DNA of 64,000 nucleotides from contig CANEUH010000018.1 in the NCBI GenBank assembly GCA_947441615.1, forward strand, positions 18,264-82,263. Reading direction: 5' to 3'. Shown here one piece after another: positions 3,175 to 51,861 of the stretch. Positions within the stretch are counted from its first letter, which is position 1, and each line of letters opens with the position of its first letter. Below the pieces are notes generated by a model that saw only the letters and a program-made list of their open reading frames with translations, was not told the DNA's origin and ran no database searches. The position numbers were made by a program, and so were the translations under genes. Origin of the DNA: Bacteriovoracaceae bacterium (lineage in GTDB: Bacteria > Bdellovibrionota > Bacteriovoracia > Bacteriovoracales > Bacteriovoracaceae).

Positions 3175-4131
3175 ATGAAAAAGATATATTTTCTTCTACT
3201 TTTAGGCGGATGTTCAATTTTTAGATCAGGCCCCGATCTATCTGAGAATTCAAAAAATGCTCCAGGATGGATTTATTCACCCTACGATTCCTGCTCAGAA
3301 GAAGTAGAACTATGTGCTGTGGGAGAGGCAAGATCTCTTGCTCAAGCTGATGGACAGGCCAGAAGTAATCTCGCAAGTATTTTTGAAATTAGGGTGACAT
3401 CAGAATTTAATGCACAAACGTCTAGTCAGTCTGGATCTCATTGGCAGGGGCAAGTTAATCAAGAAGTTCAACAATCCTTACAGGAATCGGTTGATCAAAT
3501 CCTTGAAACGGTTCAAATTAAAAAACGTTTTAAAGATAAAGGTCTCACTTATTCTCTAGCTTCAATTGATAGGGCAAAGGCCTCTGAACTTGTAGGTACT
3601 AGGCTATCCAAGTTAGATGATGAACTTAATTCCCACTGGAGTAAGCGGAGCCGAACAAATCTTCGGAACATCATTCGTCTTTATATGGAACGCGAAAAGC
3701 TCAATGAGAGGTACTCAATTCTTTCGGGTTCATCTAGACCTTCAATGATGACATTTAAAGAAATTACAGAGTGGAGAGAGTCTCGATTAAAACCTGAACC
3801 ACTTGCCCTTCGTATTGGTCAGGCACCCGATTGGATGAGTGAGAAGCTAAAAGAACTTCTGACTGAAGCGGGATTTAAACTAGTTAAGGGTGATGCCGAC
3901 AAAGCAATTTCACTAAATGTTGATTCGATCAAGGAGTTTTTAAATGTTCAGGGGTTTGAAAAATACACCTTCACCATGAATCTGACGAGTTTTGAGAAGG
4001 GTGAAAAAAATAAAGTCTTATCGGCATCTGAAACTGTTACCGGAAGATCACAGGCAGATGCACTTTTGAAAGTGAAACGTTTTTTTAATGAATATATAGA
4101 AAAACATTTATCTGATTTACGTCTTGATTAA
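3175..4131 (+). CDS. LPP20-like lipoprotein
   Basis: This is a predicted lipoprotein with a short signal peptide and lipobox LLGGC (Cys13 from the ATG). The track begins two codons earlier at a TTG, but the ATG at 3175 gives the normal MKKIYF start. The mature N-terminal part (APGWIYSP, then VGEAR.LAQADGQARSNLASIFEI) resembles LPP20-family domains, in which an Ala-rich helix follows a short strand. It is first of four codirectional genes that include an LpoB-like protein and a COG3014 protein, so a role in envelope or peptidoglycan-synthase regulation is a reasonable inference. No catalytic motif is visible. Confidence 0.7.
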   Translation: MKKIYFLLLLGGCSIFRSGPDLSENSKNAPGWIYSPYDSCSEEVELCAVGEARSLAQADGQARSNLASIFEIRVTSEFNAQTSSQSGSHWQGQVNQEVQQSLQESVDQILETVQIKKRFKDKGLTYSLASIDRAKASELVGTRLSKLDDELNSHWSKRSRTNLRNIIRLYMEREKLNERYSILSGSSRPSMMTFKEITEWRESRLKPEPLALRIGQAPDWMSEKLKELLTEAGFKLVKGDADKAISLNVDSIKEFLNVQGFEKYTFTMNLTSFEKGEKNKVLSASETVTGRSQADALLKVKRFFNEYIEKHLSDLRLD

Positions 4132-8189: not shown

Positions 8190-8672
8190 ATGCAAGATGG
8201 TGTTGTTCTATCGACAGTTGACGATTTCCTTAACTGGGGTCGAAAAAATTCTCTTTGGCCTATGACATTTGGTTTAGCTTGTTGTGCAATCGAGATGATG
8301 GCGACAGGTGCTTCCAAATATGATCTCGAGCGCTTTGGTTGTGGTGCCTTCATGGCTACACCGAGAAGAGCAGATCTTATGATTGTTGCAGGAACTGTGA
8401 CGCTTAAGATGGCGACTCGAGTGAAAACACTTTATGAACAAATGGCTGAGCCAAAATACGTAATCTCAATGGGCTCTTGTGCAAACAAGGGTGGGCCTTA
8501 CTGGCAGCATGGTTATCACGTTCTAAAGGGCGTTGATGAAGTAGTTCCTGTTGATGTTTACGTCCCAGGATGTCCTCCACGTCCAGAAGCCCTCATTGAG
8601 GGAGTGATGACACTTCAAAAGAAAATTGCCAACGAGCGTCTCCTTCGTACTAAGTGGGTAAAACATGCTTAA
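8190..8672 (+). CDS. nuoB: NADH-quinone oxidoreductase subunit B
   Basis: NuoB holds the terminal 4Fe-4S cluster N2 next to the quinone site of complex I. The family's ligands are all visible: the tandem pair in LACCAIEMM (Cys31, Cys32), MGSC (Cys97) and VPGCPPRPE (Cys128). The length of 160 residues is normal. A promoter lies just upstream, and the 3' end overlaps nuoC by 8 nt. It acts on the cytoplasmic face of the inner membrane with NuoC, D and I encoded next. Confidence 0.97.
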
Positions 8673-9263: not shown

Positions 9264-10439
9264 ATGCAAAGCCGTTGGGATATTGGTGAACCGGAAAAGC
9301 CGACCATCAACAAAGATACAGAACAGCTAAAGTCAGAACTTCTCACTTTAAATATGGGACCTCAGCATCCTGCGACTCACGGAGTTCTTAGAATTGAGAT
9401 TTGGACTGACTCTGAAGTGGTTGCTCATGCGATCCCGCACTTGGGCTACCTCCACCGTTGTATGGAAAAGCATGCTGAAAACTTAGACTATCGTGGTGTC
9501 ATTCCATTCGTTGATCGTCTTGATTATCTTGCGGCCATGAATATGGAGTGGACGTATGTAGCTGCAGTCGAAAAGATGCTGGGCACTGAAGTTCCTCGTC
9601 GAGGTGAACTCATTCGTATTATGACGGCTGAGCTTCAGCGAATTGCCTCTCACTTAATGGCATTCGGTACTTACGCACTCGATTTGGGTGCCTTTACTCC
9701 ATTCTTATATGCATTTGAGGAGCGTGAGAAAATTCTTCGTTTGTTTGAGGAAGTTTCTGGGGCCCGTCTTCTTTATAACTACATCTGGATAGGTGGAGTA
9801 TGGAATGATTGGACTGATGAGCAGCTGGCCAGAGTTTCAGCTTTCTGTGACACGATGGAAGAAGAGGCAAAAAAATATAACGAACTCGTTTCCATGAATA
9901 AAATATTTGTTCAAAGAACAGCGAACGTGGGGATTTTCTCCCTGCAAGATTGTTTTGATTATGGGGCGACTGGCCCAGTCCTTCGCGGCTCTGGTATGAA
10001 GTGGGATCTTCGTAAGAATGCTCCTTATTCACTTTATTCTGAGTTCGATTTTGATGTTCCAGTTGGTGAAGCGGAACTTGGTCAAGTTGGTGACTGTTGG
10101 AATCGTTATTACGTTCGAATGAAGGAAGTGATTCAATCGATTAGAATTATTCGTCAAGTGCTTGAGAAATTAGAGCCAGGTTCAGTGATGGGCAAGGTTC
10201 CAAAAGTGATTAAACTTCCAAAGGGTGAAGTCTACATGAGACACGAATGTCCTCGTGGAGAGCTTGGTATTCACCTCGTTTCAGAGGGAGACTCTAAGCA
10301 GCCATACCGTTTAAAAGTTAAGTCTCCTTGTTTTACCCACACGTCAATGCTTCCGAGGATTGCTCCTGGGCAAATGATTGCAGACTTTGTAGCAAGTGTT
10401 GGTTCAATTGATATCGTATTAGGAGAGGTGGACCGATGA
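9264..10439 (+). CDS. nuoD: NADH-quinone oxidoreductase subunit D
   Basis: This is the 49-kDa subunit that forms much of the quinone cavity with NuoB. It has the hallmark NMGPQHPATHGVLR near residue 30, the LGYLHRCMEKHAE segment with the quinone-site His, and a C-terminus ending in DIVLGEVDR. The length of 391 is typical. It follows nuoC after 14 nt and overlaps nuoI by 4 nt (ATGA). Confidence 0.97.
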   Translation: MQSRWDIGEPEKPTINKDTEQLKSELLTLNMGPQHPATHGVLRIEIWTDSEVVAHAIPHLGYLHRCMEKHAENLDYRGVIPFVDRLDYLAAMNMEWTYVAAVEKMLGTEVPRRGELIRIMTAELQRIASHLMAFGTYALDLGAFTPFLYAFEEREKILRLFEEVSGARLLYNYIWIGGVWNDWTDEQLARVSAFCDTMEEEAKKYNELVSMNKIFVQRTANVGIFSLQDCFDYGATGPVLRGSGMKWDLRKNAPYSLYSEFDFDVPVGEAELGQVGDCWNRYYVRMKEVIQSIRIIRQVLEKLEPGSVMGKVPKVIKLPKGEVYMRHECPRGELGIHLVSEGDSKQPYRLKVKSPCFTHTSMLPRIAPGQMIADFVASVGSIDIVLGEVDR

Positions 10440-41310: not shown

Positions 41311-41387
41311 GCACCGGTAGCTCAGTTGGATAGAGCAACCGATTTCTAATCGGTAGGTCACAGGTTCGACTCCTGTCCAGTGCGCCA
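41311..41387 (+). tRNA. tRNA-Arg (anticodon UCU)
   Basis: The cloverleaf folds cleanly: acceptor GCACCGG/CCAGTGC, D arm GCTC...GAGC, anticodon stem ACCGA/TCGGT with loop TTTCTAA, variable region, T arm ACAGG/CCTGT, discriminator G and encoded CCA. The anticodon TCT reads AGA/AGG codons. The acceptor stem has one C-A mismatch at pair 5-68. The last 12 bases plus the following T are repeated at 48469, marking island integration. Confidence 0.97.
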
Positions 41388-41388
41388 T
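41376..41388 (+). repeat. Left attachment-site core (13-bp direct repeat in tRNA-Arg 3' end)
   Basis: TCCAGTGCGCCAT spans the tRNA acceptor 3' strand, the encoded CCA and one base more. An exact copy in the same orientation occurs at 48469-48481, the expected product of tyrosine-recombinase integration into a tRNA 3' end. Confidence 0.75.
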
Positions 41389-41517
41389 TTAATTTTGATA
41401 TTTTTATTTTTTTTCAAAAAATTGCTCTAAGTATTTTTAATCATTTAACTCGAAGTTTTCTCAAGGGATTTTAGAAAATCCGCTTCACATCACACGACAT
41501 AACCGGAAATTTCAAAT

Positions 41518-41547
41518 TTGGGCTTTTACTTGGCTTCGATTTGGCTT
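41518..41547 (+). repeat. Three TTGG(G)CTT direct repeats at 11-bp period
   Basis: GGCTT occurs at 41521, 41532 and 41543, each preceded by TTG, TT or TT respectively, exactly 11 bp apart. They lie about 130-160 bp from the left core and could be integrase arm-type sites. Only three short copies, so chance is possible. Confidence 0.35.
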
Positions 41548-41662
41548 TGCTGAAATTCGATTTTATGTTTGTTCACTTACTCCACCTTCAAAGGGCCTTT
41601 AACCATTAAGGATCATTGAGCTACTCTATCCAGTTGTAGCTCTGATCAGAAAGGATGTGTTT

Positions 41663-42001
41663 ATGGCACCAAGATCAAGTTTTCGTATTGTAACGGATGA
41701 TGTCCGGGCCATACGAGTTCTCAGGGAAAAGAAGCGTCTATCAGTGAACAAGGCGGCTCCAGTTGTCGGGACTAATAAGTCCACGCTCACGGCCCTTGAG
41801 AATGGCCGGATTAATTTATCACCACAATGGATAGAGAAAATCTTAAAGGGGTACCGGACAAGTTGGGAGGAGTTTGAGCGATTGAAGGAGCAAAGGCTTT
41901 CTTCAAAGGAAACTCTTATTGATGAAATCCGGAATGAAGCCGCCAAGCTTAGCTATGAAAAGCTCCAGACGATCCGGCAGCTTCTTATTGGTTTTCAATA
42001 G
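41663..42001 (+). CDS. XRE-family (Cro/CI-type) regulator
   Basis: The product has an N-terminal Cro/CI HTH with AIRVLREKKRLSVNKAAPVV, GTNKSTLTALENGRINL as the recognition region, and a helical tail. The ATG at 41663 has a RBS (aaaggatg), so it is preferred over the GTG two codons earlier in the track. First gene inside the island; likely controls island genes, an inference from position. 112 residues. Confidence 0.75.
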   Translation: MAPRSSFRIVTDDVRAIRVLREKKRLSVNKAAPVVGTNKSTLTALENGRINLSPQWIEKILKGYRTSWEEFERLKEQRLSSKETLIDEIRNEAAKLSYEKLQTIRQLLIGFQ

Positions 42002-42293
42002 TTAGCCTCAAAATGGCCGTACAAACTTTTTACAGTTCGAAATCCCCTATGGAGAAACTTCATGGAGGACTTTTTTAAAATTCTTGGGCTTGTACACTAT
42101 GACGAAAGAATTATTAACAACATGATGGTTTTAACAATTAGGCAAAAAATCGTTTATTTTCTGGTTAATTTGGGAAACCCTCTGTAAAAAATACCAGCAC
42201 TATTGAGATCTTTTTTAGATCTGTTAAATTGATTTTATTAACACGGACACGTCTACTCCCATATAAAACAGGACATAGACAATTGGAGAAAAT

Positions 42294-42680
42294 ATGAAAA
42301 AACTAATCGTAATTGCAGTACTTTGTTTAACAGTATCTCAATCTTTTGCAGCCATCGTTCGATCGGCTAAACTTGATAAAACACTGAGAAATATTTTGAT
42401 TGATATCGAATATAGTGGAGGTTGCAAGGAACATAAATTTAAACTTGTTCCTGGACCGTGTTTTGAAACTTATCCTCTACAATGTAATGCAAAATTAGTT
42501 GATGAAACTCAGGATGATTTCTGTGAGGCCTTTATTTTTCAAACAATTTCAATCCCTCTTACCCAAATTAATATAGATTTAAATGATGAATATTATTCTG
42601 GAGCACATCTTTATATAACTGGCGATAAAGATTATAAAACAAAAAAAGATTCTGAAGCATTTATTATTTTACCAAAATAA
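42294..42680 (+). CDS. Small secreted Cys-containing protein
   Basis: The 128-residue product has a signal peptide (LIVIAVLCLTVSQSFA) and four Cys in the mature part (GGCKEHKFKLVPGPCFE, QCNAK, DFCEAF), possibly two disulfides. The strand pattern suggests a small beta fold. A good RBS (ggagaaaat) precedes the ATG. A terminator-like hairpin lies downstream. No family recognised. The 292 bp upstream hold no gene I can support. Confidence 0.6.
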   Translation: MKKLIVIAVLCLTVSQSFAAIVRSAKLDKTLRNILIDIEYSGGCKEHKFKLVPGPCFETYPLQCNAKLVDETQDDFCEAFIFQTISIPLTQINIDLNDEYYSGAHLYITGDKDYKTKKDSEAFIILPK

Positions 42681-42841
42681 TTTTCACTTTAAAACCTGGA
42701 ATGAGTCCCATCGACTAGATACGTCGACCCCATATTTTCTGAACAAAACTATGGGTAAATTCTCCAGACAAAGGGGCTCAGTCTAAACCACTAGATTGAA
42801 ACGCTAACCAAGAAAACAAACGCGAAAGAAATCGACCCAAT

Positions 42842-42873
42842 AAGGCTGGCCATAAAGGTCAGCCTTTGTTTTT
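42842..42873 (+). terminator. Intrinsic terminator
   Basis: AAGGCTGGCC and GGTCAGCCTT pair over 10 bp with one G-T, with a 5-nt loop, followed by TGTTTTT. It can end the secreted-protein transcript 160 bp upstream. Confidence 0.75.
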
Positions 42874-42927
42874 CTGCTCGGATTCCAATGCCTTTAAACG
42901 CAAATAATCATCATGCTCTTTCTCAAT

Positions 42928-43746
42928 TTACTCCTCGGCGGCTTCCTGCTCTTCTTCGTCTTCCATGTCCTCTACGTCGGTATAGGACTGATAACGGAAC
43001 ATATAATTCATGCGGGATTCATAGACCCATTTCTTGATCTCATGTTTTTGCTGAATGGTAAGAACCTTCTCTTGTAGGGTTGGAAATTCAATTTGAATTT
43101 TCTCGCCCGATGGAAGGACTTGATAAAGGGGGGCTGGATTTACGGTATATTGAGATACCGGTCTTCCTTTTCTCCGAAGTCTGGGAAACTCAGGGTAAAG
43201 CTCCTGAAGTTTTTTATAGGCCCAGTTCAAACGCTCCTGACAAGATGGAATACTTATTCCAAGCTTCTTAGCATTTTCTTCTTGGGTTGGTTTCTCAAAA
43301 TCATCATAAAACCATTCAAGCATCATGGCATCGGTCTGTGCCTGAGTCAGATCATCCCATATTCGATGAAACTTTTTCGCCCATGGAGGCATTTTCTTAT
43401 GAACCTTGGCCCAAATTGCATTTTTAGTAAGCTGATAACGTTTTTCGGTGTAGCGGGGCCATAATTTTTGGATTTCATTCGGAAGATCAATCCTATGATA
43501 GAAGCATGTCGCTAAATTTTGAATATCATCAGACTCACGCTTAAAATCTCCTCTGGCGTACATTGTTTGAAAAAATGAGTCCTGCAAATTTTCAGGGGGA
43601 CAAGAAAAGAAAGCGGATACTGAAGAAGAAGCAAAACCTAGGGCATCAGGTAGACTGTCGCGAAGTCCTTGATCCGTTGAAGAGGCTTTCTTAAGGTTGC
43701 GGTCGTTGTCCCTTTTATCAGTAAGAAGATCTGGGGTCGTATCCAA
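42928..43746 (-). CDS. Sigma-70 region 4-like protein; possible 5'-truncated or non-canonical start
   Basis: The C-terminal half has an HTH-like region (TQEENAKKLGISIPSCQERL, followed by NWAYKKLQELYPEF), the typical sigma-70 region 4 or related pattern, and an acidic tail (EDMEDEEEQEAAEE). No sigma region 2 is recognisable. The track start is a TTG at 43746 with a weak RBS (gagag). The frame stays open and coding-like for 49 more codons upstream, to a TAA at 43894, without ATG/GTG/TTG, so the true start is unclear. It lies divergent from the excisionase-integrase operon and could be its regulator. Confidence 0.55.
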   Translation of the reverse strand: MDTTPDLLTDKRDNDRNLKKASSTDQGLRDSLPDALGFASSSVSAFFSCPPENLQDSFFQTMYARGDFKRESDDIQNLATCFYHRIDLPNEIQKLWPRYTEKRYQLTKNAIWAKVHKKMPPWAKKFHRIWDDLTQAQTDAMMLEWFYDDFEKPTQEENAKKLGISIPSCQERLNWAYKKLQELYPEFPRLRRKGRPVSQYTVNPAPLYQVLPSGEKIQIEFPTLQEKVLTIQQKHEIKKWVYESRMNYMFRYQSYTDVEDMEDEEEQEAAEE

Positions 43747-43926
43747 AAAGCTCTCAATACTAGTTGGTGTCTCATCATCCTCAAAAATCTCTCCATTCAG
43801 GTTTTGAACGGCTTCAAGCCCCTCAAAAAGAACTTCGAGACCAGTATCCTCGCGGGATTCGTAGCGGATAAGATTTTCTTGAATGAGAGATTCTTATAAT
43901 AGGAATCAGAATGTTGTTACAAGAAG

Positions 43927-43971
43927 ACTCAAACACGGAGTCAAACTAGAACTTTGAGTTGATGTTTGAGT
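43927..43971. promoter_or_regulatory. Operator-like tetrad of 9-bp boxes at 12-bp period
   Basis: Four 9-bp boxes are separated by exactly 3 bp each: ACTCAAACA, AGTCAAACT, then ACTTTGAGT and TGTTTGAGT, the last two being reverse-oriented copies (consensus ACTCAAAC). The outer pair is a perfect inverted repeat. It lies in the gap between divergent genes and may be an operator or a set of recombination-factor sites. Confidence 0.6.
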
Positions 43972-44015
43972 TTGAAAAAATCCAAGTCATGAATCTTCTT
44001 AAATAATAACGAGAA

Positions 44016-44106
44016 ACCCCCGCCATCTCCCCCGTCGCAATTTTGCTGACCACTCCCACCCTACGAGCGGAAGTGGTCAGCAAAGCTACGGGGTAATGGC
44101 GGGGGT
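44016..44106. ncRNA. 91-nt GC-rich three-stem hairpin element
   Basis: The two ends pair as ACCCCCGCCAT/ATGGCGGGGGT (11 bp). An inner stem is CCCCGT/ACGGGG (6 bp), and the innermost is TTTGCTGACCACT/AGTGGTCAGCAAA (13 bp), with a 17-nt loop and short internal loops. No T-run follows, so it is not a normal terminator. It is far more GC-rich than its AT-rich flanks. It could act as a folded DNA recombination site, a replication or transfer structure, or an RNA; type ncRNA is a placeholder. Confidence 0.5.
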
Positions 44107-44146
44107 ATTATTGAAGAAAAAAAACAAAAAAAAAGGAAAAAAATAA

Positions 44147-44266
44147 ATGAATACATTAAGAGAAGAATTGAGGAAGGAAGAATTAGGAATGGATACGGGG
44201 TCTAAGCAGCGAAAAATAAACAAACAGAAATCGGAGAACTATGTCAGAAAACTTTATCAGCGGTAA
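44147..44266 (+). CDS. 39-residue charged small ORF upstream of excisionase
   Basis: An ATG with RBS (aaaaagga, 9 nt before) opens a 39-codon frame, highly charged (LREELRKEELG, then KQRKINKQKSENYVRKLYQR). It overlaps the next gene by 26 nt. It may be a real small peptide or a leader ORF; size and composition make this uncertain. Confidence 0.3.
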   Translation: MNTLREELRKEELGMDTGSKQRKINKQKSENYVRKLYQR

Positions 44267-44510
44267 TTACAATCAGTCTGAGAAAAGATATAGTGCGAGC
44301 GAGCAAAAAAATGCTCAAGTGCTCTTTGAAAATTTGGAATGGGTGAACAGTGATGAAGCGGCCTTCATCTTAAGGAAGTCGGTCGGTGCGATCAGGACTG
44401 CGGTATGTCGTGGTCAGATCAAGGCGACAGTTTATAGACGACGACTTTATTTTAAGAGGAAGGATCTGATTTCCCTTTTGGAAACTTCTCCAACCAAAGG
44501 AGGTTTCTAA
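44241..44510 (+). CDS. Excisionase-like MerR/HTH_17 DNA-binding protein
   Basis: The 89-residue product has a winged HTH of the excisionase/AlpA kind: VNSDEAAFILRKSVGAIRTA followed by a wing with YRRRLYFKRKDLISLLE. The role in directing excision or controlling integrase expression is inferred from the family and from overlap with the integrase by 1 nt (TAATG). RBS ggag before the ATG. Confidence 0.75.
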   Translation: MSENFISGNYNQSEKRYSASEQKNAQVLFENLEWVNSDEAAFILRKSVGAIRTAVCRGQIKATVYRRRLYFKRKDLISLLETSPTKGGF

Positions 44511-45640
44511 TGGGTATTAAATCGTATCATCAAGATGAGAAGGTGTATTGGAAAGTCTATGTCAATCTGCGTAGTAAAGAGAACTCTAGGATCAGAAAAC
44601 AGAAAAGTGTTTCGGGTCTTGAGTCACTTTCTGCCGCCAGAAGAATGGAGAAGCAAGTCATTGCGGAACTTTCGGTGGAGTTAACTTTGGCGACGGGGCA
44701 TGGTTTAAGTTGGTCTGGTATCATTGATCGTTGGGAGAAGGATGCAAAGTCTGGACTCTTAAGGAAGTATGATCCGACAACGATCATGGATACGGTGTCA
44801 GGCTTAAGAAGATGGACAAAAGAGTGGCTAGAAATTTCGTCCGAAGAATTGACTCGCTTCCATGGAAGAGAGCTTCAAAAGAAAATGGAACTCGCTGGGA
44901 TGACTTCTCAAGGCCAGAAAAAAGTTAGGAGCATGGTCAACACTGTGTTCAACTATGGCCTTGAGGAAAAGTTTATTTCAAAACCGATTCCATCTCCAGT
45001 GGCGGCCCTGATCTTCAATAACGATGCTGAAAAAGTTCCTGACATTTTGACTCTAGGAGAAATTAAACAATTTCTTGAAAGAGGGAAAGAGCTTCAGAAC
45101 GAGTGGTATCCAATTTGGGCCATGGCACTTCTGACAGGGATGAGAAACGGTGAGCTTTACGCTTTAGAATGGAGTGATATTGATTTTGAAAATTCGCTGA
45201 TTCGAGTTTCAAAGTCGTATAACTCTCGGCTTAAGATTGTTAAATCGACGAAGGCAGGTTACTGGCGAAACATTCCGATTTCAAGTCAACTCAGAGAGCT
45301 TTTGATTGGGCTTAAATCTAAAGGCATGAATCAACATGTGCTTCCGCGTTTGGGTGGCTGGAACCAAGGTTTACAGGCCCAAGAGCTGAGATTCTTTTTG
45401 AAAGGAATTGGTATAAGGCCTGTGAAGTTTCATGCATTGAGGGCGTGTTTTGCAACTCAGTTACTTGCTAAAAATATTGCTCCGGCAATCGTGATGAAAA
45501 TCTGTGGTTGGAAGAATCTAAAGACCATGGAAATTTACGTTAGATTAGCGGGAGTGAATGAAGCTGGGGCCACTGAATGCTTAGAAATTTTGCCGATGGA
45601 AGTCGTAATGGAGAATGTAGTCAGTTTGTATAATAACTAG
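44510..45640 (+). CDS. int: Tyrosine recombinase (phage-type integrase)
   Basis: This protein is predicted to integrate and excise the island at the tRNA-Arg site. It has an N-terminal arm-binding part, a core-binding domain and a C-terminal catalytic domain. Catalytic residues are Arg212 (LLTGMRNGELYALEW), Lys248 (STKAGYWR), His308 and Arg311 (HALRACFATQLL), Trp334 (ICGWKNL) and Tyr343 (MEIYVRLA). 376 residues with the pentad intact. A terminator follows the stop. Confidence 0.93.
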   Translation: MGIKSYHQDEKVYWKVYVNLRSKENSRIRKQKSVSGLESLSAARRMEKQVIAELSVELTLATGHGLSWSGIIDRWEKDAKSGLLRKYDPTTIMDTVSGLRRWTKEWLEISSEELTRFHGRELQKKMELAGMTSQGQKKVRSMVNTVFNYGLEEKFISKPIPSPVAALIFNNDAEKVPDILTLGEIKQFLERGKELQNEWYPIWAMALLTGMRNGELYALEWSDIDFENSLIRVSKSYNSRLKIVKSTKAGYWRNIPISSQLRELLIGLKSKGMNQHVLPRLGGWNQGLQAQELRFFLKGIGIRPVKFHALRACFATQLLAKNIAPAIVMKICGWKNLKTMEIYVRLAGVNEAGATECLEILPMEVVMENVVSLYNN

Positions 45641-45642
45641 AG

Positions 45643-45678
45643 ATAGGGGGGCGGGAAACCGTGCCCCTCCTTTTTTTG
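45643..45678 (+). terminator. Intrinsic terminator after integrase
   Basis: A G-rich arm (AGGGGGGCGG) pairs imperfectly with CCGTGCCCCT around GAAA, followed by a run of seven T after CC. Confidence 0.7.
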
Positions 45679-45737
45679 TGTCCTGAGTTCCATCTTACTG
45701 ATAATATGACGTTATTACTCAGTTAGGAATAAGAAGT

Positions 45738-46049
45738 ATGGTTGACGTAGGGTCAAGAATTGATGTAACATCAATGTTAAGTTCAGGGCAGGCTAGGAAG
45801 GTTTTGTCCGAAATTTTTAATCAAAATCCCAATTTAATATCTTTCTCAAAACACGCTTTTGAGGAGATGAAAAACGATAGTTTAAAGACTGGTGATATTC
45901 TTAATGTGCTTAAAGCGGGCAAAATTTATGATGAACCAGAGTTTGAAAATGGAAGCTACCGCTACAGGGTTCAAACTCAAAAGATCACAGTGGTAATTGC
46001 TTTTAGAAAACCTAATCATGTTGTTATTGTTACAGCCTGGAGAGAATAG
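45738..46049 (+). CDS. DUF4258-like putative toxin
   Basis: The 103-residue product has the RelE/MqsR-like core: FSKHAFEEMKNDSLKTGDIL, YRVQTQKITVVIAFRKPN and the ending VVIVTAWRE. This is the pattern of DUF4258 proteins, usually found with MqsA-type antitoxins, as here 1 nt downstream. Toxin activity is inferred from pairing, not seen. Confidence 0.7.
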   Translation: MVDVGSRIDVTSMLSSGQARKVLSEIFNQNPNLISFSKHAFEEMKNDSLKTGDILNVLKAGKIYDEPEFENGSYRYRVQTQKITVVIAFRKPNHVVIVTAWRE

Positions 46050-46050
46050 A

Positions 46051-46548
46051 ATGAAATGTGTAATTTGTGGCCATAAAATGACTGAGGATAAATCCGGACT
46101 TTTTTCCTACGTCAGTAGCGGTTTATCAAAAGTTTATTTAAAAGGTGTTCACATTCACAAATGTTCAAATAAAGAATGCGGTGAAGAGGAAGTTACTATT
46201 CCTAACATTGAAGAACTCCATGAGCTTTTAGCTGAAAATGTAGCGAAGCAAAATAATGTCCTTCAACCAGAAGAAATTCGTTTTCTAAGAACTCATTTAG
46301 GTTTCTCTGGAGCGGATTTTGCGAAGGTGATGGGCGTTAGTCCAGAAACTGTTTCCCGATGGGAAAAAGGGACTGTAAATATGAAAGAAGCCTCTGAACG
46401 ATTAATCAGAGTGCTAGTTCTTTCAAAGCTAGGGCCTTTTAGAGAATATGAAGATTTAAAAGTCTATGCTTCTAAAGCAAGCAAGACCCCAGTGAGAAGA
46501 GTCTTTGAATTAGAGCGTTCTCATTGGCTTGAGGCGAAAGTTGCCTGA
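46051..46548 (+). CDS. MqsA-like antitoxin (zinc ribbon plus HTH)
   Basis: The 165-residue product has an N-terminal zinc-binding part (CVICGHKM and CSNKECGEE) and a C-terminal XRE HTH (FSGADFAKVMGVSPETVSRW) like YgiT/MqsA. The track start at 45997 is too early; the ATG at 46051 begins one base after the toxin stop. Antitoxin function is inferred from family and pairing. Confidence 0.8.
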   Translation: MKCVICGHKMTEDKSGLFSYVSSGLSKVYLKGVHIHKCSNKECGEEEVTIPNIEELHELLAENVAKQNNVLQPEEIRFLRTHLGFSGADFAKVMGVSPETVSRWEKGTVNMKEASERLIRVLVLSKLGPFREYEDLKVYASKASKTPVRRVFELERSHWLEAKVA

Positions 46549-46619
46549 TTTGGCTTACTCTGGCTTTTCAGTACACTAACTCATTAATAACTAAGGCGCC
46601 TCAAAGTATGCGCCATCTT

Positions 46620-47106
46620 CTACCAGTTGATCTTCTTCGGATCTACTCCCCAATAAAGTTTGCGTACTTCTTTTTTTGAATCCTTTTTTTCATAAAGAAA
46701 TGAAACACCTTTACTGTCACTGTATTCGGAAATTTCGGTTCTTAGGGGATGGTTCTTAGGTGGATGCTCAAACGTTTCCCAGTCAGAAGTTTTTATTTGA
46801 GTTTTAATATAATCAACAGTCCCTTTAGAACGTTCAAATAACCAAAGTGAAGCTGATACGGCCTTGTTTGTTTGTTTGTTTGTCATAAGTAATACTTAGA
46901 CGAGGAATACTGCTCTCTTTACTAATTCCTAATACATAATATTTTTTATTTTCCTCAATCTTTTTAAGCTCAGCAAGCTGAGTCAAGGCAAAATTAGGAT
47001 CTTTTGAGTCCCAGATTTCTTGCATTATTACAATTTCACTAGGCTTTTCAGAATGTGAAGTTGAGCATGAAGCTATAAGAAAAAATGCTAATAGATACCC
47101 TCTCAT
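46620..47106 (-). pseudogene. Lipoprotein gene split by CAAA-repeat frameshift
   Basis: Two track ORFs (46834-47106 and 46620-46886) read as one protein broken at a CAAA repeat. The first half has a lipobox (LIASC, Cys14) and ends ITYDKQTNKQGRIS. The second starts within the repeat and continues KAVSASLWLFERSK. Removing one CAAA unit joins the frames as ...ITYDKQTNKAVSAS..., giving about 161 residues. This looks like an on/off slippage tract or a recent frameshift; a sequencing error is possible. Its ATG directly abuts the stop of the metallopeptidase-like gene. Confidence 0.65.
46864..46883. repeat. Tetranucleotide (TTTG/CAAA) repeat in lipoprotein gene
   Basis: Four full TTTG units, plus a leading TTG and a trailing T, form a 20-nt microsatellite. 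Each gain or loss of a unit changes the frame by 4 nt. One unit less restores the reading frame. Confidence 0.85.
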
Positions 47107-47847
47107 TTATTTCTCCAATTTAAAGTCTTTGCCCATGATATTTTGAATGTAGTTATGGGCCTCCTTACTCTTAACACTTAATTCTCTGGGATTATGTAGA
47201 TAGAATTCAAAGTGATTTGCAAGGTCTTCTGATAGGTCATGAAACGAGTTTGGTTTAAGCGGTGGAGATTGAGTGAGTCTTATAAGATTTGTTGTTTCAG
47301 TCTCCTCCCTCCAACCCATTAGGTACACAAGTTTGGTAATTTCTTCTCTATTGTGCTCATATACATGTAAGTGACTGATTTCATGACTTAAAATTTGAGA
47401 TTTTTTATTGGAAGTAAAGAATTCGTCATACAGGGAAATAGCGTTCAGTCGTTTAACAGCAGCTCCTGGATTTTTGTCGTAGATTGATTTAACTCCACGA
47501 AGGAATGTTACTCCTGAAATATTCCTGTATAGCGGTGGCTCCTCGCTGAGATATTTTAGAACAGTTTCTTTTTCCAGTTGAGTCCATTTTTTGAAATCTT
47601 CGGTCTTGTTGGGCCAGCCAGCGATTTTTCCGTCAGTAAATCTTTTCTGCCAACTTTCGACTTTTGGAAATTTATTTTTGCAGAAATCTTTTTTCTTCGA
47701 CTCAGATACTTTAGTTCCGTCTTTCTTTTCATAAGCCTGGACTTCATGAGAGCGAACGATGAATTCCCATTTTGTGCACGGGGGAGGTGATGCCATAGCA
47801 TTAGTGGATAAAAAGAAAGTGAGGAGCAGAAAGAGTTTAATCTTCAT
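47107..47847 (-). CDS. Secreted HExxH zinc-peptidase-like protein
   Basis: The 246-residue product (ATG at 47847 with RBS agaggttt; the track start is 11 codons too early) has a signal peptide (MKIKLFLLLTFFLSTNAMA) and one zinc motif, SHEISHLHVYEH (His155-His159). A downstream acidic segment (SEDLANHFEF) could supply the third ligand. It starts 11 nt inside the RelE-like gene and abuts the split lipoprotein, so all four genes form one operon. No family recognised beyond the motif. Confidence 0.65.
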   Translation of the reverse strand: MKIKLFLLLTFFLSTNAMASPPPCTKWEFIVRSHEVQAYEKKDGTKVSESKKKDFCKNKFPKVESWQKRFTDGKIAGWPNKTEDFKKWTQLEKETVLKYLSEEPPLYRNISGVTFLRGVKSIYDKNPGAAVKRLNAISLYDEFFTSNKKSQILSHEISHLHVYEHNREEITKLVYLMGWREETETTNLIRLTQSPPLKPNSFHDLSEDLANHFEFYLHNPRELSVKSKEAHNYIQNIMGKDFKLEK

Positions 47848-48118
47848 AAACCTCTCGACGATGACCAACTTTAATAACAACTACAAGAACTTCTTGTTTA
47901 TAAATTTGATAGATAATTCGATAATCACCGACGCGAAGTTTGAAAAGACCAGTTAAATTTCTTCTTAGTGGATGCCCAAATTTTAAAGGATCTACCATGA
48001 GCTTTTCTTCAATGGCCTTCTTGATTAATTTTTTAGCTGAGCCATCAAGGGCAGTGATGTCATCCATGGCTGATTGAACATAACTAATAGCCCATTTAGA
48101 ATGAGGACTCTTTGTCAT
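47837..48118 (-). CDS. RelE/ParE-family toxin
   Basis: The 93-residue product has the family layout: helix DGSAKKLIKKAIEEKL, then GHPLRRNLTGLFKLRVGDYR and IIYQIYKQEVLVVVIKVGHR. Basic and aromatic residues of the mRNA-cleaving type are present. It overlaps the antitoxin gene by 4 nt and runs 11 nt into the next gene, HExxH. Activity is inferred from family. Confidence 0.85.
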   Translation of the reverse strand: MTKSPHSKWAISYVQSAMDDITALDGSAKKLIKKAIEEKLMVDPLKFGHPLRRNLTGLFKLRVGDYRIIYQIYKQEVLVVVIKVGHRREVYED

Positions 48119-48342
48119 TTCTTCTTAGACCAGACAGTCTCATGAGAAAGCTTTTTTTCATGCAAGCGGCCTTCAGCGATTTTTGCATAATAAAGATCTT
48201 CATTTATTTCCAATGCCTCTTTGGCCAAGTCTAGAATCACACTTGATATTGAAGATTCATTACGAAGGTTTTTCAAGGTTTCGAAGTCTTGATATAGGTC
48301 ATCTTCGATAGTGAGATTGACGCGTTTTTTAGCTGTAGGCAT
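48115..48342 (-). CDS. RelB-like ribbon-helix-helix antitoxin
   Basis: The 75-residue product has an N-terminal ribbon-helix-helix region (KKRVNLTIEDDLYQDFETLK) and a helical C-terminus that would bind the toxin. It is first in the operon with an inverted-repeat operator just upstream, the usual self-repression arrangement. Confidence 0.8.
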   Translation of the reverse strand: MPTAKKRVNLTIEDDLYQDFETLKNLRNESSISSVILDLAKEALEINEDLYYAKIAEGRLHEKKLSHETVWSKKK

Positions 48343-48351
48343 AAGGCTCCC

Positions 48352-48377
48352 CTAGTGTTACTTAAGTGTAACACTAG
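48352..48377. promoter_or_regulatory. Perfect 10-bp inverted-repeat operator of the RelB/RelE operon
   Basis: CTAGTGTTAC and GTAACACTAG flank a 6-bp spacer, about 10 bp before the antitoxin ATG. A RHH protein such as RelB could bind it. Confidence 0.7.
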
Positions 48378-48468
48378 TAGAGATGTAAAGTCAATCACCC
48401 AATAAATACAATTGCTTATGTAGCTTTGATGACTTTGCCTCAAGACAAGCGGTTGCGAAGTCCAACAC

Positions 48469-48481
48469 TCCAGTGCGCCAT
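48469..48481 (+). repeat. Right attachment-site core (13-bp repeat of tRNA 3' end)
   Basis: TCCAGTGCGCCAT matches 41376-41388 exactly in the same orientation. The 303-bp gap 48343-48645 holds only the operator above and this site; no gene is supported there. Confidence 0.75.
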
Positions 48482-48645
48482 CTTGTATTCTCTTTGATTT
48501 CAAAACAAATTCTAAGGCTTCACCTCTCATCCCTCCTGATGGGTTTTGGAACTTCATTTCTGAAGTCTTTTTTTATCCTTCCATCTACATCTTGTTTACC
48601 TTCCTTTGTACGTCATAAATTTCTTTGTTACATCATGGAGGTAGT

Positions 48646-49158
48646 ATGAGTGACGTTAGTTTATCCAAGATAGAGAATATGATTTACGTGATCAGAGGTC
48701 AGAAAGTCATGGTGGATTCAGACTTGGCACAACTCTATGGAGTTCTTACTAAGAACCTTAACAAGGCTGTCGGTCGTAATAAAGATCGATTTCCTGGGGA
48801 CTTTATGTTTCAGCTTACAGAAGAAGAAGCTGAAAGTTTGAGGTTCCAAATTGGAACCTCAAAAGTGGGTCGAGGAGGTCGGAGGTATCTGCCTTATGTT
48901 TTTACTGAGGGCGGAGTCGCCATGCTATCCAGCGTTTTAACCAGTAACGAAGCGGCCAGAGTTAACATATCCATAATAAGAACATTCATTAGACTCCGAA
49001 GCTTTCTTGCCATGGAAAACTCCTTACCTGAGAAAATGAATAAACTTGAGTCAGGAACCAATAAACTGTTCAAAGTTGTATTTGAAAGGTTGGATAATAT
49101 TGAAGCCGTTGTTGATTCAAAATTGCCAAAGCGAAAAAAGAATATTGGACTTAATTAA
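48646..49158 (+). CDS. ORF6N-domain protein
   Basis: The 170-residue product has the ORF6N/KilA-related domain: MIYVIRGQKVMVDSDLAQLY, GRNKDRFPGDFMFQLTEEE and TEGGVAMLSSVLTS. Such proteins are often phage antirepressors or DNA-binding. The ATG at 48646 with ggaggtagt as RBS is preferred to the TTG in the track. A phage-type gene just outside the right att copy. Confidence 0.9.
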   Translation: MSDVSLSKIENMIYVIRGQKVMVDSDLAQLYGVLTKNLNKAVGRNKDRFPGDFMFQLTEEEAESLRFQIGTSKVGRGGRRYLPYVFTEGGVAMLSSVLTSNEAARVNISIIRTFIRLRSFLAMENSLPEKMNKLESGTNKLFKVVFERLDNIEAVVDSKLPKRKKNIGLN

Positions 49159-49293
49159 ACAAACTTGATGTGCCGATTTGGCCCATAAAGTGCATAAACC
49201 ACTAAAATGGTAAGAGTGATTTGCAGCCCACTCAATACAGAATTTACTGAAATCCATCTTAAATCTTTTTTCTATCCCACCGAAAAGATTTCG

Positions 49294-50469
49294 ATGCCCA
49301 TTTTTTTTAGAGTTAAAGACAAGGTCTTTAAATGTCCAGATCGTATTGTTGTTGGTCGAGGTGCGCCTTTCAGCGTTTTTGATGGTAATTGGGGAGTTGC
49401 TAGGGCGCATCTATTGATCGAGAAAAAGAAAAATCAAATAAGGGTTAAATCTTTAAATCGAAAGCTTGAAACTTCAATAAATGAAAAATTAGCTAAACCC
49501 GGTAAATTTATCAACGTTTCTGAAACTGACAATATTTCAATAGGTGGAGAATTCATCCAATTTCTCTCTGAGGGTCTAGGGGATGAGGGAGTCATCAGTA
49601 TTGAGAAAACGACTTCCTTACCCATCAACACAGCATTCAAATTATATTTTATCATTATTTATTTAATTCTCGTGGGCTTCATTTTTTACGATAATAAATT
49701 TTCTCTTTTTAGTTTTATTAGCTGTCTCTTTGTTTCCTTCCTACTTTGGGGTGGGTTTAGTTGGATCATAAAATTCTACGAAAAGCTTGCAGCTCCCTCG
49801 ATGAAAGAAATCTATATTTCTCCAGAGGGGTTTACAGTTCATTTTAGTGATCAGCAGACCATGTCTTTTAAAACACAGAGTATTCAATCTTGGTTTCATT
49901 CTAAGCGCGGCAAGACTCTCTTTGTTACCGCTCATGATGAGGAGTATGTATTAAATACTTTTGGAAACTTTCAAAGTTTGGTGAATTACTTAAGAGAAAA
50001 TGTTCCAGAAAAAGAAATGGACAGCAAAAAATTAGAGAAAAACTGGATGATTCTTTTTCTCTTTTTGATCTTGGGTTTTGTCTCAAATAGCTTAATTTCC
50101 ATCTTCGCCTGCCTCCTGGTATCTCTGGTTTGTATAGGAATGATCTTGAGTCCCAAAGTCAGGCACTTGTGGCCAGGGCACGTGACTAAGGTTTACTCCA
50201 AGAGAAAACAACTAATCTCACTTGTATTACTCGGGCTTATCACTGGCTTCATTGGAATTGATAAATATTTTTTAAGGCTAAATGAACAGCTTGTAAGTAG
50301 CTGTCTATCTGGAAATAAGAACGTTTGCCATCGAATCAATTTTCGGAAAGCAGATCCAGATGACTTCAATTCAAAAACGATTTATCACGAAACACTGACT
50401 CTCGCCTGTAAAGATAATAATCCAACAGCATGTAAAAAAATGAAGAAATTAGGAATTGTTAAAAATTGA
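49294..50469 (+). CDS. FHA-like membrane protein, unknown
   Basis: The N-terminal part resembles an FHA domain: RIVVGRGAPFSVFDG, ARAHLLIEKKKNQIRVKSLN and NISIGGEFIQFL, though the usual Ser before the x-x-His is Ala. Four or more TM helices follow in two groups, then a short Cys-containing tail (SCLSGNKNVCHRI, LACKDNNPTACKKM) like Sel1 helices. The track start 49207 gives 29 more residues; the ATG at 49294 fits better with a weak RBS. Function unknown; phospho-threonine binding is only suggested. Confidence 0.55.
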   Translation: MPIFFRVKDKVFKCPDRIVVGRGAPFSVFDGNWGVARAHLLIEKKKNQIRVKSLNRKLETSINEKLAKPGKFINVSETDNISIGGEFIQFLSEGLGDEGVISIEKTTSLPINTAFKLYFIIIYLILVGFIFYDNKFSLFSFISCLFVSFLLWGGFSWIIKFYEKLAAPSMKEIYISPEGFTVHFSDQQTMSFKTQSIQSWFHSKRGKTLFVTAHDEEYVLNTFGNFQSLVNYLRENVPEKEMDSKKLEKNWMILFLFLILGFVSNSLISIFACLLVSLVCIGMILSPKVRHLWPGHVTKVYSKRKQLISLVLLGLITGFIGIDKYFLRLNEQLVSSCLSGNKNVCHRINFRKADPDDFNSKTIYHETLTLACKDNNPTACKKMKKLGIVKN

Positions 50470-51069
50470 TTATTGTTTTGTTGTTTGTTTTGATCGGTGA
50501 TTTCTATTTGATGACGATTCTTCTTCCACTCTCTTAATAGATCTATCCGAGTCATCTTTTACAGCTTTATCGAGGCAGTAATGTGAAAATCTTTGGTCTT
50601 TAATAGCTTCTTTTAAGACTTTTTTAAATTCACCTTTACTACCAAAGAATCCAGGATCAAAAATTTTTTGATTCGGACAAAAGGATCCATCTTCCATAAG
50701 TTCAGAAAGCATCGCCCTAAGGTGATCATAATTTTCATGAGGAAGTTTACATTCATCTTTAATGGCTTTTCTGAATGAATCGAGCCATTCTTTTTTGGGA
50801 TCATCTTTTGAATAGGAAAAAAAACCTGGGCCCCACTTAATGGCATAAACAAGATCTTTCGCCCAATTATCTATATGGGCCGAGACTTCAATACCGGGCC
50901 AGTATCCAAGTTGACCGTTATTTATGTAAACCTGACCTCCAATCCTCTCCGTGTAGCCATGTTTCTTTTGAATCTCTTCTGCTTTTTTCTCATACAAGGG
51001 AAGGCACGACTCAGCAGAAACATTGGTGGAGATGGTTAATAGAGAGAGGGCAAGGAAGGTTCTCTTCAT
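50470..51069 (-). CDS. Secreted hypothetical protein
   Basis: The 199-residue product has a signal peptide (LALSLLTISTNVSA), Cys in the mature part (ESCLPLYE, KDECKLPHEN, GSFCPNQ, HYCLDK) that may pair, and a charged tail with SDRSIKRVEEE. The same SDRSI phrase occurs near the end of the divergent neighbour. No family recognised. Confidence 0.55.
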   Translation of the reverse strand: MKRTFLALSLLTISTNVSAESCLPLYEKKAEEIQKKHGYTERIGGQVYINNGQLGYWPGIEVSAHIDNWAKDLVYAIKWGPGFFSYSKDDPKKEWLDSFRKAIKDECKLPHENYDHLRAMLSELMEDGSFCPNQKIFDPGFFGSKGEFKKVLKEAIKDQRFSHYCLDKAVKDDSDRSIKRVEEESSSNRNHRSKQTTKQ

Positions 51070-51134
51070 AGATTACTTGTCGGTTAAACTCAGATTTTCT
51101 TTAGGCTACTATTTATTTCACCGATAAGTTAATT

Positions 51135-51848
51135 ATGAAATGTAAACTACCACTCTTTTTCGGTATTTCGTTATTGTCCTTTAGTTGCTACTCACAAGAG
51201 TTTCTCGTAAGTCAATTCTCTAAGTGTGAGCCCTCAGGTTGGAGACAATACGAAATCGAGGGGGCCAAAGAGAAGGCGCGTTTTTATTCATATACTGCTT
51301 ACTGTTTTGATAAAAAAAGAAAGATGGAGCGGGAGATTGAATTTAAATGCATGGGGGAGGATGGTGGTATCTTGTTTGATGATTGTTTGAAATCAGGTGC
51401 ATTAAAAACACTTAAGAGAGAAAAAACGTCTGATCATGGTAGTTATGAAGCTGGGCTTGCAGTTATAAAACATCAAAATATATACGCAAAGACAGGAGGA
51501 CCCTACAAATACGAAGAATGTATCCCTGGAATATTAACAACTAGGGAAATCGGCCAAAACGCTGAATCTCAAAGGCTCTATACCTTTGATACTGTATGCA
51601 AAACTTCTTTGGGATTTGTTTTTGAAAGTAAAATTGAGTGTATCGATGATTCAAAATTTCCACCAAGCTATCTTGAGTGCATCAAAAAAAAGGATCGTTT
51701 AAAATGGAAAGACTCCGGAGGTTATGACAAAGACGACTTTGATCCGAAAAAAATGAATGTTAATCAATCTGATCGATCGATAAGAGAAGAAAAAGAAAAA
51801 AATAAAATTCAGAAAATGGATAAAAAAATAAAAGTGCAAAAACAATAA
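51135..51848 (+). CDS. Secreted Cys-rich hypothetical protein
   Basis: The 237-residue product has a signal peptide (LPLFFGISLLSFSCYS) and a mature part of two similar halves, each with a Cys pattern: SKCEPSGWRQYE...AYCFDKK...ECIPG...FDTVCKT...IECIDD. This suggests a duplicated small domain with disulfides. The end is a long Lys/Glu-rich tail with SDRSIREEKEK. Function unknown. Confidence 0.55.
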   Translation: MKCKLPLFFGISLLSFSCYSQEFLVSQFSKCEPSGWRQYEIEGAKEKARFYSYTAYCFDKKRKMEREIEFKCMGEDGGILFDDCLKSGALKTLKREKTSDHGSYEAGLAVIKHQNIYAKTGGPYKYEECIPGILTTREIGQNAESQRLYTFDTVCKTSLGFVFESKIECIDDSKFPPSYLECIKKKDRLKWKDSGGYDKDDFDPKKMNVNQSDRSIREEKEKNKIQKMDKKIKVQKQ

Positions 51849-51861
51849 CAAGTGATCCGAT

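Follow-up and report, generated by a model that had tools for sequence, protein, structure and literature searches.

Origins of transfer (oriTs) are hard to find by sequence, and MOBC relaxases work without the usual HUH chemistry. In the MOBC1 plasmid CloDF13, which is mobilised by the coupling protein MobB and the relaxase MobC, the oriT carries GTGGGTG/GTCGGG (the slash marks the cut) and has inverted arms, CTGACCACCC and GGGTGGTCGG, ∼60 bp apart around G(N)G(N)G(N)G/GTC. An exact match to GGGTGGTCGGG occurs a single time in the CloDF13 sequence (NC_002119), where it forms an inverted repeat with CTGACCACCC; we take it to be the nic sequence published for this plasmid (GGGTG/GTCGGG, Nunez and de la Cruz 2001). 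The order oriT-mobB-mobC described for this plasmid type is also that of pMET1, in which an inverted repeat encloses two nic sites (PMC2262945), and the nic site of ICEKp1, type C1, is GGTTG/GTCGCG (PMC7755788). The relaxase TraX of pAD1 has its binding repeats 70–120 bp from nic, and both TraX and CloDF13 MobC have been described as restriction-endonuclease-like (PMC12857230). Elements with an integrase and an oriT and no relaxase have been defined as iOriT elements, together with a reductive-evolution model (PMC11389934). Our literature searches found no oriT described for Bdellovibrionota, a phylum of predatory bacteria, and no paper on iOriT-type elements in this phylum.

Here we analysed a hairpin in a 64-kb stretch of Bacteriovoracaceae DNA (the window). 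On the basis of its structure, its family, the covariation of its stems, its association with genes and the borders of the island that holds it, we consider the hairpin very probably the core of an oriT recognised by a MOBC-family relaxase, with the window copy lying on a relaxase-less island. Like the CloDF13 oriT, it places inverted arms around a G(N)G(N)G(N)G/GTC core, and the traD-mobC pair of its relatives parallels the coupling protein and relaxase that mobilise CloDF13; however, it is a compact hairpin with a short loop and extra outer stems, whereas the CloDF13 arms are widely spaced, and the order of its genes is traD-mobC-oriT-xis-int. With pMET1 it shares two possible nic sites within an inverted repeat, whereas pMET1 and ICEKp1 belong to another host group and no compact nested hairpin has been described for them. 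ACTCAAA/TTTGAGT repeats upstream of the hairpin (Table 1) lie at a distance from the predicted nic comparable to that of the repeats of TraX, a relaxase of the same superfamily (MOBC); the pAD1 repeats are direct, whereas those of the window are mixed direct and inverted, overlap a reading-frame remnant and are a candidate binding site.

The hairpin and its family

The sequence-only reading had reported a 91-nt GC-rich hairpin with stems of 11, 6 and 13 bp beside an integrase operon, and the structure was present as described, with an outer stem of 11 bp (44016–44026/44096–44106), a middle stem of 6 bp plus 2 bp (44030–44038/44085–44093) and an inner stem of 13 bp (44042–44054/44072–44084). 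The adjoining operon was confirmed and consists of a small ORF followed by the genes for an xis-like HTH_17 protein and a tyrosine integrase. The contrast with AT-rich flanks was confirmed as well: the G+C content is 0.63 in the hairpin and 0.36 and 0.32 in the 200-bp flanks. The folding energy is −60.2 kcal/mol on the plus strand and −73.6 on the minus strand (z = −10.2 and −11.9, respectively; 0 of 200 shuffles folded as well), and the hairpin is the strongest 100-nt fold of the 64-kb window (−59.1 versus −38.0 for the next). We agree that it is not a terminator, as there is no T-run after it on either strand and a terminator scan of the window had no entry at the site.

Table 1. Features of the hairpin locus, in window coordinates
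Feature	Position	Strand	Basis
tRNA-Arg(TCT), integration site, left border	41311..41387	+	tRNA call, relatives
Integrated island (∼5.2 kb) holding the hairpin	41388..46618		Comparison with G018 and G022; border repeat
272-aa gene, weak sigma-factor/HTH similarity	42928..43746	-	Head-on to ORF85 remnant
Remnant 3' end (last 17 codons) of ORF85 gene	43899..43949	+	Homology with G025 begins at 43899
ACTCAAA/TTTGAGT repeats, candidate protein-binding site	43927..43975		45–90 bp upstream of hairpin, conserved in G025 and G058
Nested palindrome, proposed MOBC-type oriT core	44016..44106		Fold, covariance-model family, covariation
GNGNGNGNGNG/GTC motif (minus strand 5'-GTAGGGTGGGAGTG/GTCAGC), predicted cut	44050..44061	-	Strand-specific G conservation, likeness to CloDF13 and ICEKp1
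Mirror nic-like core GTG/GTC, second copy (44075/44076)	44073..44078	+	Sequence
Small 39-aa ORF	44147..44266	+	Conserved in G025 and G058 (three-way alignment)
xis-like HTH_17 protein	44241..44510	+	Pfam PF12728
Tyrosine integrase	44510..45640	+	Pfam PF00589, E 5e-19
DUF4258 (toxin-like) and MqsA-like antitoxin pair	45738..46548	+	Pfam PF14076, PF15731

A 90% identical copy of the hairpin is present in another genome of the genus (G025), and the window's own genome has two diverged paralogues on contig C7. Further hairpins adjoining mobC were obtained by searching relatives for PF13814, and a covariance model (R1) was built from an alignment of 12 hairpins (A3). R1 matched 15 of the 26 genomes of the genus and 93 of the 192 sampled Bdellovibrionota genomes (62 of 119 genera); a genome had at most 13 matches, and many of these are one palindrome counted on both strands. 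Independently of R1, a degenerate exact-pattern scan of 84,980 species genomes yielded 40 matching stretches; nearly all are labelled as Bdellovibrionota groups (Bacteriovoracaceae, Bdellovibrionaceae, Oligoflexia), and at least some of the oddly labelled ones appear to sit on contigs that belong to this phylum.

Compensatory changes, on which the sequence-only reading had staked its hairpin, were found in 38 hairpins outside the R1 training set, aligned with MAFFT. Their covariation score was 0.423, compared to a shuffle mean of 0.107 (0 of 500 shuffles reached 0.423) and to at most 0.114 for slid versions of the stem. Double changes occurred in 12 of the 21 pairs, and 87.8% of the cells were paired, a percentage that is somewhat favoured because R1, by which the members were selected, already encodes the structure. 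This selection leaves the variety of pair types unexplained (at pair 16-47, for example, AT 13, CG 13 and TA 11). Most members also have outer stems (29 of 47 flank pairs reach p ≤ 0.02). Between the window, G025 and G058, a genome of another genus, the flanks diverge, whereas the sequence of the hairpin's 3' half hardly changes.

Genes next to the hairpin

In 34 of the 40 pattern matches mobC lies on the same strand and ends 22–149 bp before the hairpin core, always in the same orientation; of the remaining six, two start 7 and 11 bp from a contig end and are cut off there. Most R1 loci likewise adjoin mobC, with exceptions. A coupling-protein gene is usually found further upstream of mobC, and xis and integrase genes often lie downstream of the hairpin. 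The family adjoins mobC and a coupling-protein gene, as a MOBC oriT should, whereas the window copy, where mobC is absent, does not. The G025 locus comprises, in order, TraD, MobC (L016:1244–1960; Replic_Relax PF13814; NCBIfam MobC), an 85-aa ORF (ORF85), hairpin, HTH_17 and integrase. At one locus on C7 (L017) the order is VirB9 (CagX), VirB10 (TrbI), TraD (VirD4), MobC, hairpin, xis and integrase, and with VirB9, VirB10 and VirD4 genes upstream of mobC at least some carriers thus look like complete ICEs.

Hairpins without mobC were also found elsewhere (L049, L084, L090, L098). The one at L049 (G015:C1 near 3533939) adjoins a large serine recombinase gene and has no mobC within 1.5 kb, L090 has AbiEii as a neighbour, and L098 has no recognised mobility gene; these three are possible iOriT elements as well. 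On a plasmid-like contig (L106, G147:C315), which has a MobA/VirD2-type (PF03432, MOBP) relaxase and ParA and lacks mobC, four hairpins lie within 4 kb and point the same way (at 3499, 5299, 6761 and 7111), possibly representing several acquired oriTs. Between the hairpin and xis, many elements encode a conserved protein of 120–155 aa without a family assignment (ORF155; L017:4706–5173 and relatives), a candidate relaxosome accessory protein.

The neighbouring relaxase

The proteins encoded next to the hairpin match PF13814 and NCBIfam MobC, with scores far below the curated cut-off of the latter model, and share invariant H, PD, ExE and K residues. An AlphaFold2 model of MobC (mean pLDDT 95) resembled FokI, PaqCI, BsaWI, EcoT38I and BamHI as well as MarR-like winged helices in a search of PDB folds; the matches are individually weak (best E 1.7e-3), and their pattern is consistent. 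Judged by the invariant residues and this model, the neighbouring relaxase has both the active site and the fold of a PD-(D/E)XK nuclease. The MobC of the window's own genome was not detected by PF13814 at E 0.01 and was detected by a local profile. Neither tblastn of MobC against plasmids nor plasmid BLAST of the hairpin region gave a match.

At the second C7 paralogue (L017:12439–13359) the hairpin is intact, and the MobC homologue lacks the PD and K positions, so that a probably inactive relaxase lies beside a conserved oriT. Other PF13814 proteins (L014/L019, L022–L024, L033, L035) have xD in place of PD, and mostly keep ExE and K; their genes lie beside xis/int or at other sites and are not accompanied by this hairpin. 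We considered whether these hairpin-less proteins are catalytically dead and dropped the idea, as most keep D, ExE and K; lacking the P of PD, they look like a sister group.

Predicted nic site

On the minus strand, G is present at −1, −3, −5, −7, −9 and −11 relative to GTC in 98–100% of 47 hairpins, while on the plus strand this level of conservation is confined to −1 and −3. The hairpin is an inverted repeat with a nic-like G/GTC core, of the kind expected of a MOBC oriT. Its likeness to the nic sites of CloDF13, ICEKp1 and pMET1 predicts a cut in the window at 44051/44050 on the minus strand, with the mirror copy on the plus strand as the second possible site.

The island at tRNA-Arg

Sequence conserved in the genus stops at the 3' end of tRNA-Arg (41387–41396), and in two relatives (G018 and G022) the tRNA gene is directly followed by the homologue of window position 46620 onward, with no island. 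A short repeat, GCGCCAT, is present at both borders, and the right border TATGCGCCAT (46609–46618) repeats the tRNA end GTGCGCCAT; a search for tRNA repeats found no long one, and the borders were taken from the empty relatives. The island contains an HTH gene, a gene for a small secreted-like protein, the 272-aa gene, the hairpin, the 39-aa ORF, xis, the integrase gene and, at its right end, the DUF4258/MqsA-like pair, a probable toxin-antitoxin module for island maintenance. A search of the window for MobC and TraD homologues found none (other relaxase types may go unrecognised in such a search).

The full ORF85 gene is present in L016 and L117 and follows mobC in G025 (L016:1935–2192). In the window the start of the 272-aa gene abuts the ORF85 remnant, and its open frame, followed backwards, meets a stop close to the joint before any ATG; this junction looks like a recombination joint that removed traD-mobC. 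The inner hairpin of the candidate helper (G025:C49) is identical to that of the window over the core. The data fit either a recent loss of traD-mobC or an oriT kept by selection as helpers mobilise the island. With an integrase, defined borders and an oriT in the absence of a relaxase, the island is, judged by its sequence, likely an iOriT element; as in those elements, a putative helper ICE has a near-identical oriT, which fits the reductive model (PMC11389934), while both the helper and the transfer of the island are putative.

The content between tRNA-Arg and the conserved genes at ∼51860 (window 41391–51860) differs among the compared genomes, which gives the locus the appearance of an integration hotspot within the genus.

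Alternative explanations

The sequence-only reading had offered a folded-DNA recombination site, a single-strand origin or a structured RNA and had chosen none of these; its DNA-processing direction held up, and a conjugative MOBC oriT was never named. A structured RNA (a leader by which the xis-integrase operon is regulated, or the 3' end of the mobC mRNA) would suit the strong fold as RNA and the location of the hairpin, which in the window and many relatives is 5' of the small ORF-xis-int operon. RNA stems are, however, expected to show more G-U pairs than we observed: the 38 hairpins had four G-U cells, on one strand, and A-C is equally rare in the main stem, a near-pure Watson–Crick pairing that fits a DNA palindrome rather than RNA. 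The gene position is also variable, as the hairpin precedes mobC-traD instead of xis-int in L093, L096 and L108 and overlaps the 3' end of mobC in L099 and L112, and an Rfam scan of the window at the gathering threshold found no match for the hairpin (the sole match was a tRNA). We therefore regard a structured RNA as very unlikely. An initiation site of the sso type or a Frpo-like single-strand promoter, which would make the transferred strand double and be separate from nic, is similarly improbable; a stable single-strand fold on a conjugative element, upstream of the early genes xis and int, is what such a site would show, and the role is compatible with oriT function, but it leaves unexplained the fixed adjacency to the relaxase gene and the agreement between the strand-specific motif and the nic sites known for MOBC.

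A palindrome near a tyrosine integrase gene could also be the attachment or folded-DNA recombination site (attP or attC-like) of that integrase. We consider this extremely unlikely, because the hairpin has an interior position in the elements, well away from their borders. In the G024 element (L099; 8.8 kb, with mobC, and with no coupling protein found there) the 19-bp bracketing repeats are at 1264 and 10078–10096 (the 3' end of tRNA-Leu), and the hairpin (8413–8470) is internal, 1.6 kb inside them; in the window, too, the borders (41388 and 46618) are not at the hairpin. Moreover, integrated elements retain an intact hairpin, and at L049 it accompanies a serine recombinase. The idea that the integrase itself acts as a relaxase (TcpM, MobK or MpsA type) was set aside, because the integrases differ strongly (20% identity between the window and G025) beside near-identical hairpins and because of the serine-recombinase case.

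Proposed model and significance

Returning to the MOBC oriT, we propose that in the full relatives MobC, with its predicted winged helix and PD-(D/E)XK nuclease, would bind the palindrome and nick one strand at G/GTC, most likely the minus strand at 5'-GNGNGNGNGNG/GTCA. The nicked strand would then be handed to the VirD4/TraD coupling protein and a VirB-type secretion system, and the palindrome would also serve re-closure. The window island would excise by its own enzymes (integrase and xis) and, as an iOriT element, would depend for its transfer on a helper ICE acting in trans, one with a MobC that recognises the same oriT; judging by the matching core sequence, an ICE like that of G025 is possibly such a helper. 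Alternatively, the island may be a recent remnant of such an ICE.

We are inclined to think, with some reserve, that these hairpins form a previously undescribed, phylum-wide class of compact multi-tier oriTs for MOBC relaxases in Bdellovibrionota, defined by the strand-specific GNGNGNGNGNG/GTC and common to full ICEs, relaxase-only elements and relaxase-less hitchhikers, and that the window island is an ICE losing its transfer genes with its oriT unchanged. As a single covariance model suffices to find the hairpin family, a search of the R1 type would allow the conjugative and mobilizable elements of the phylum to be listed, including hitchhikers without a relaxase. The identity of the oriTs may then allow hitchhikers to be paired with their helpers, and the hairpin family would offer a way to test how MOBC relaxases recognise their site.
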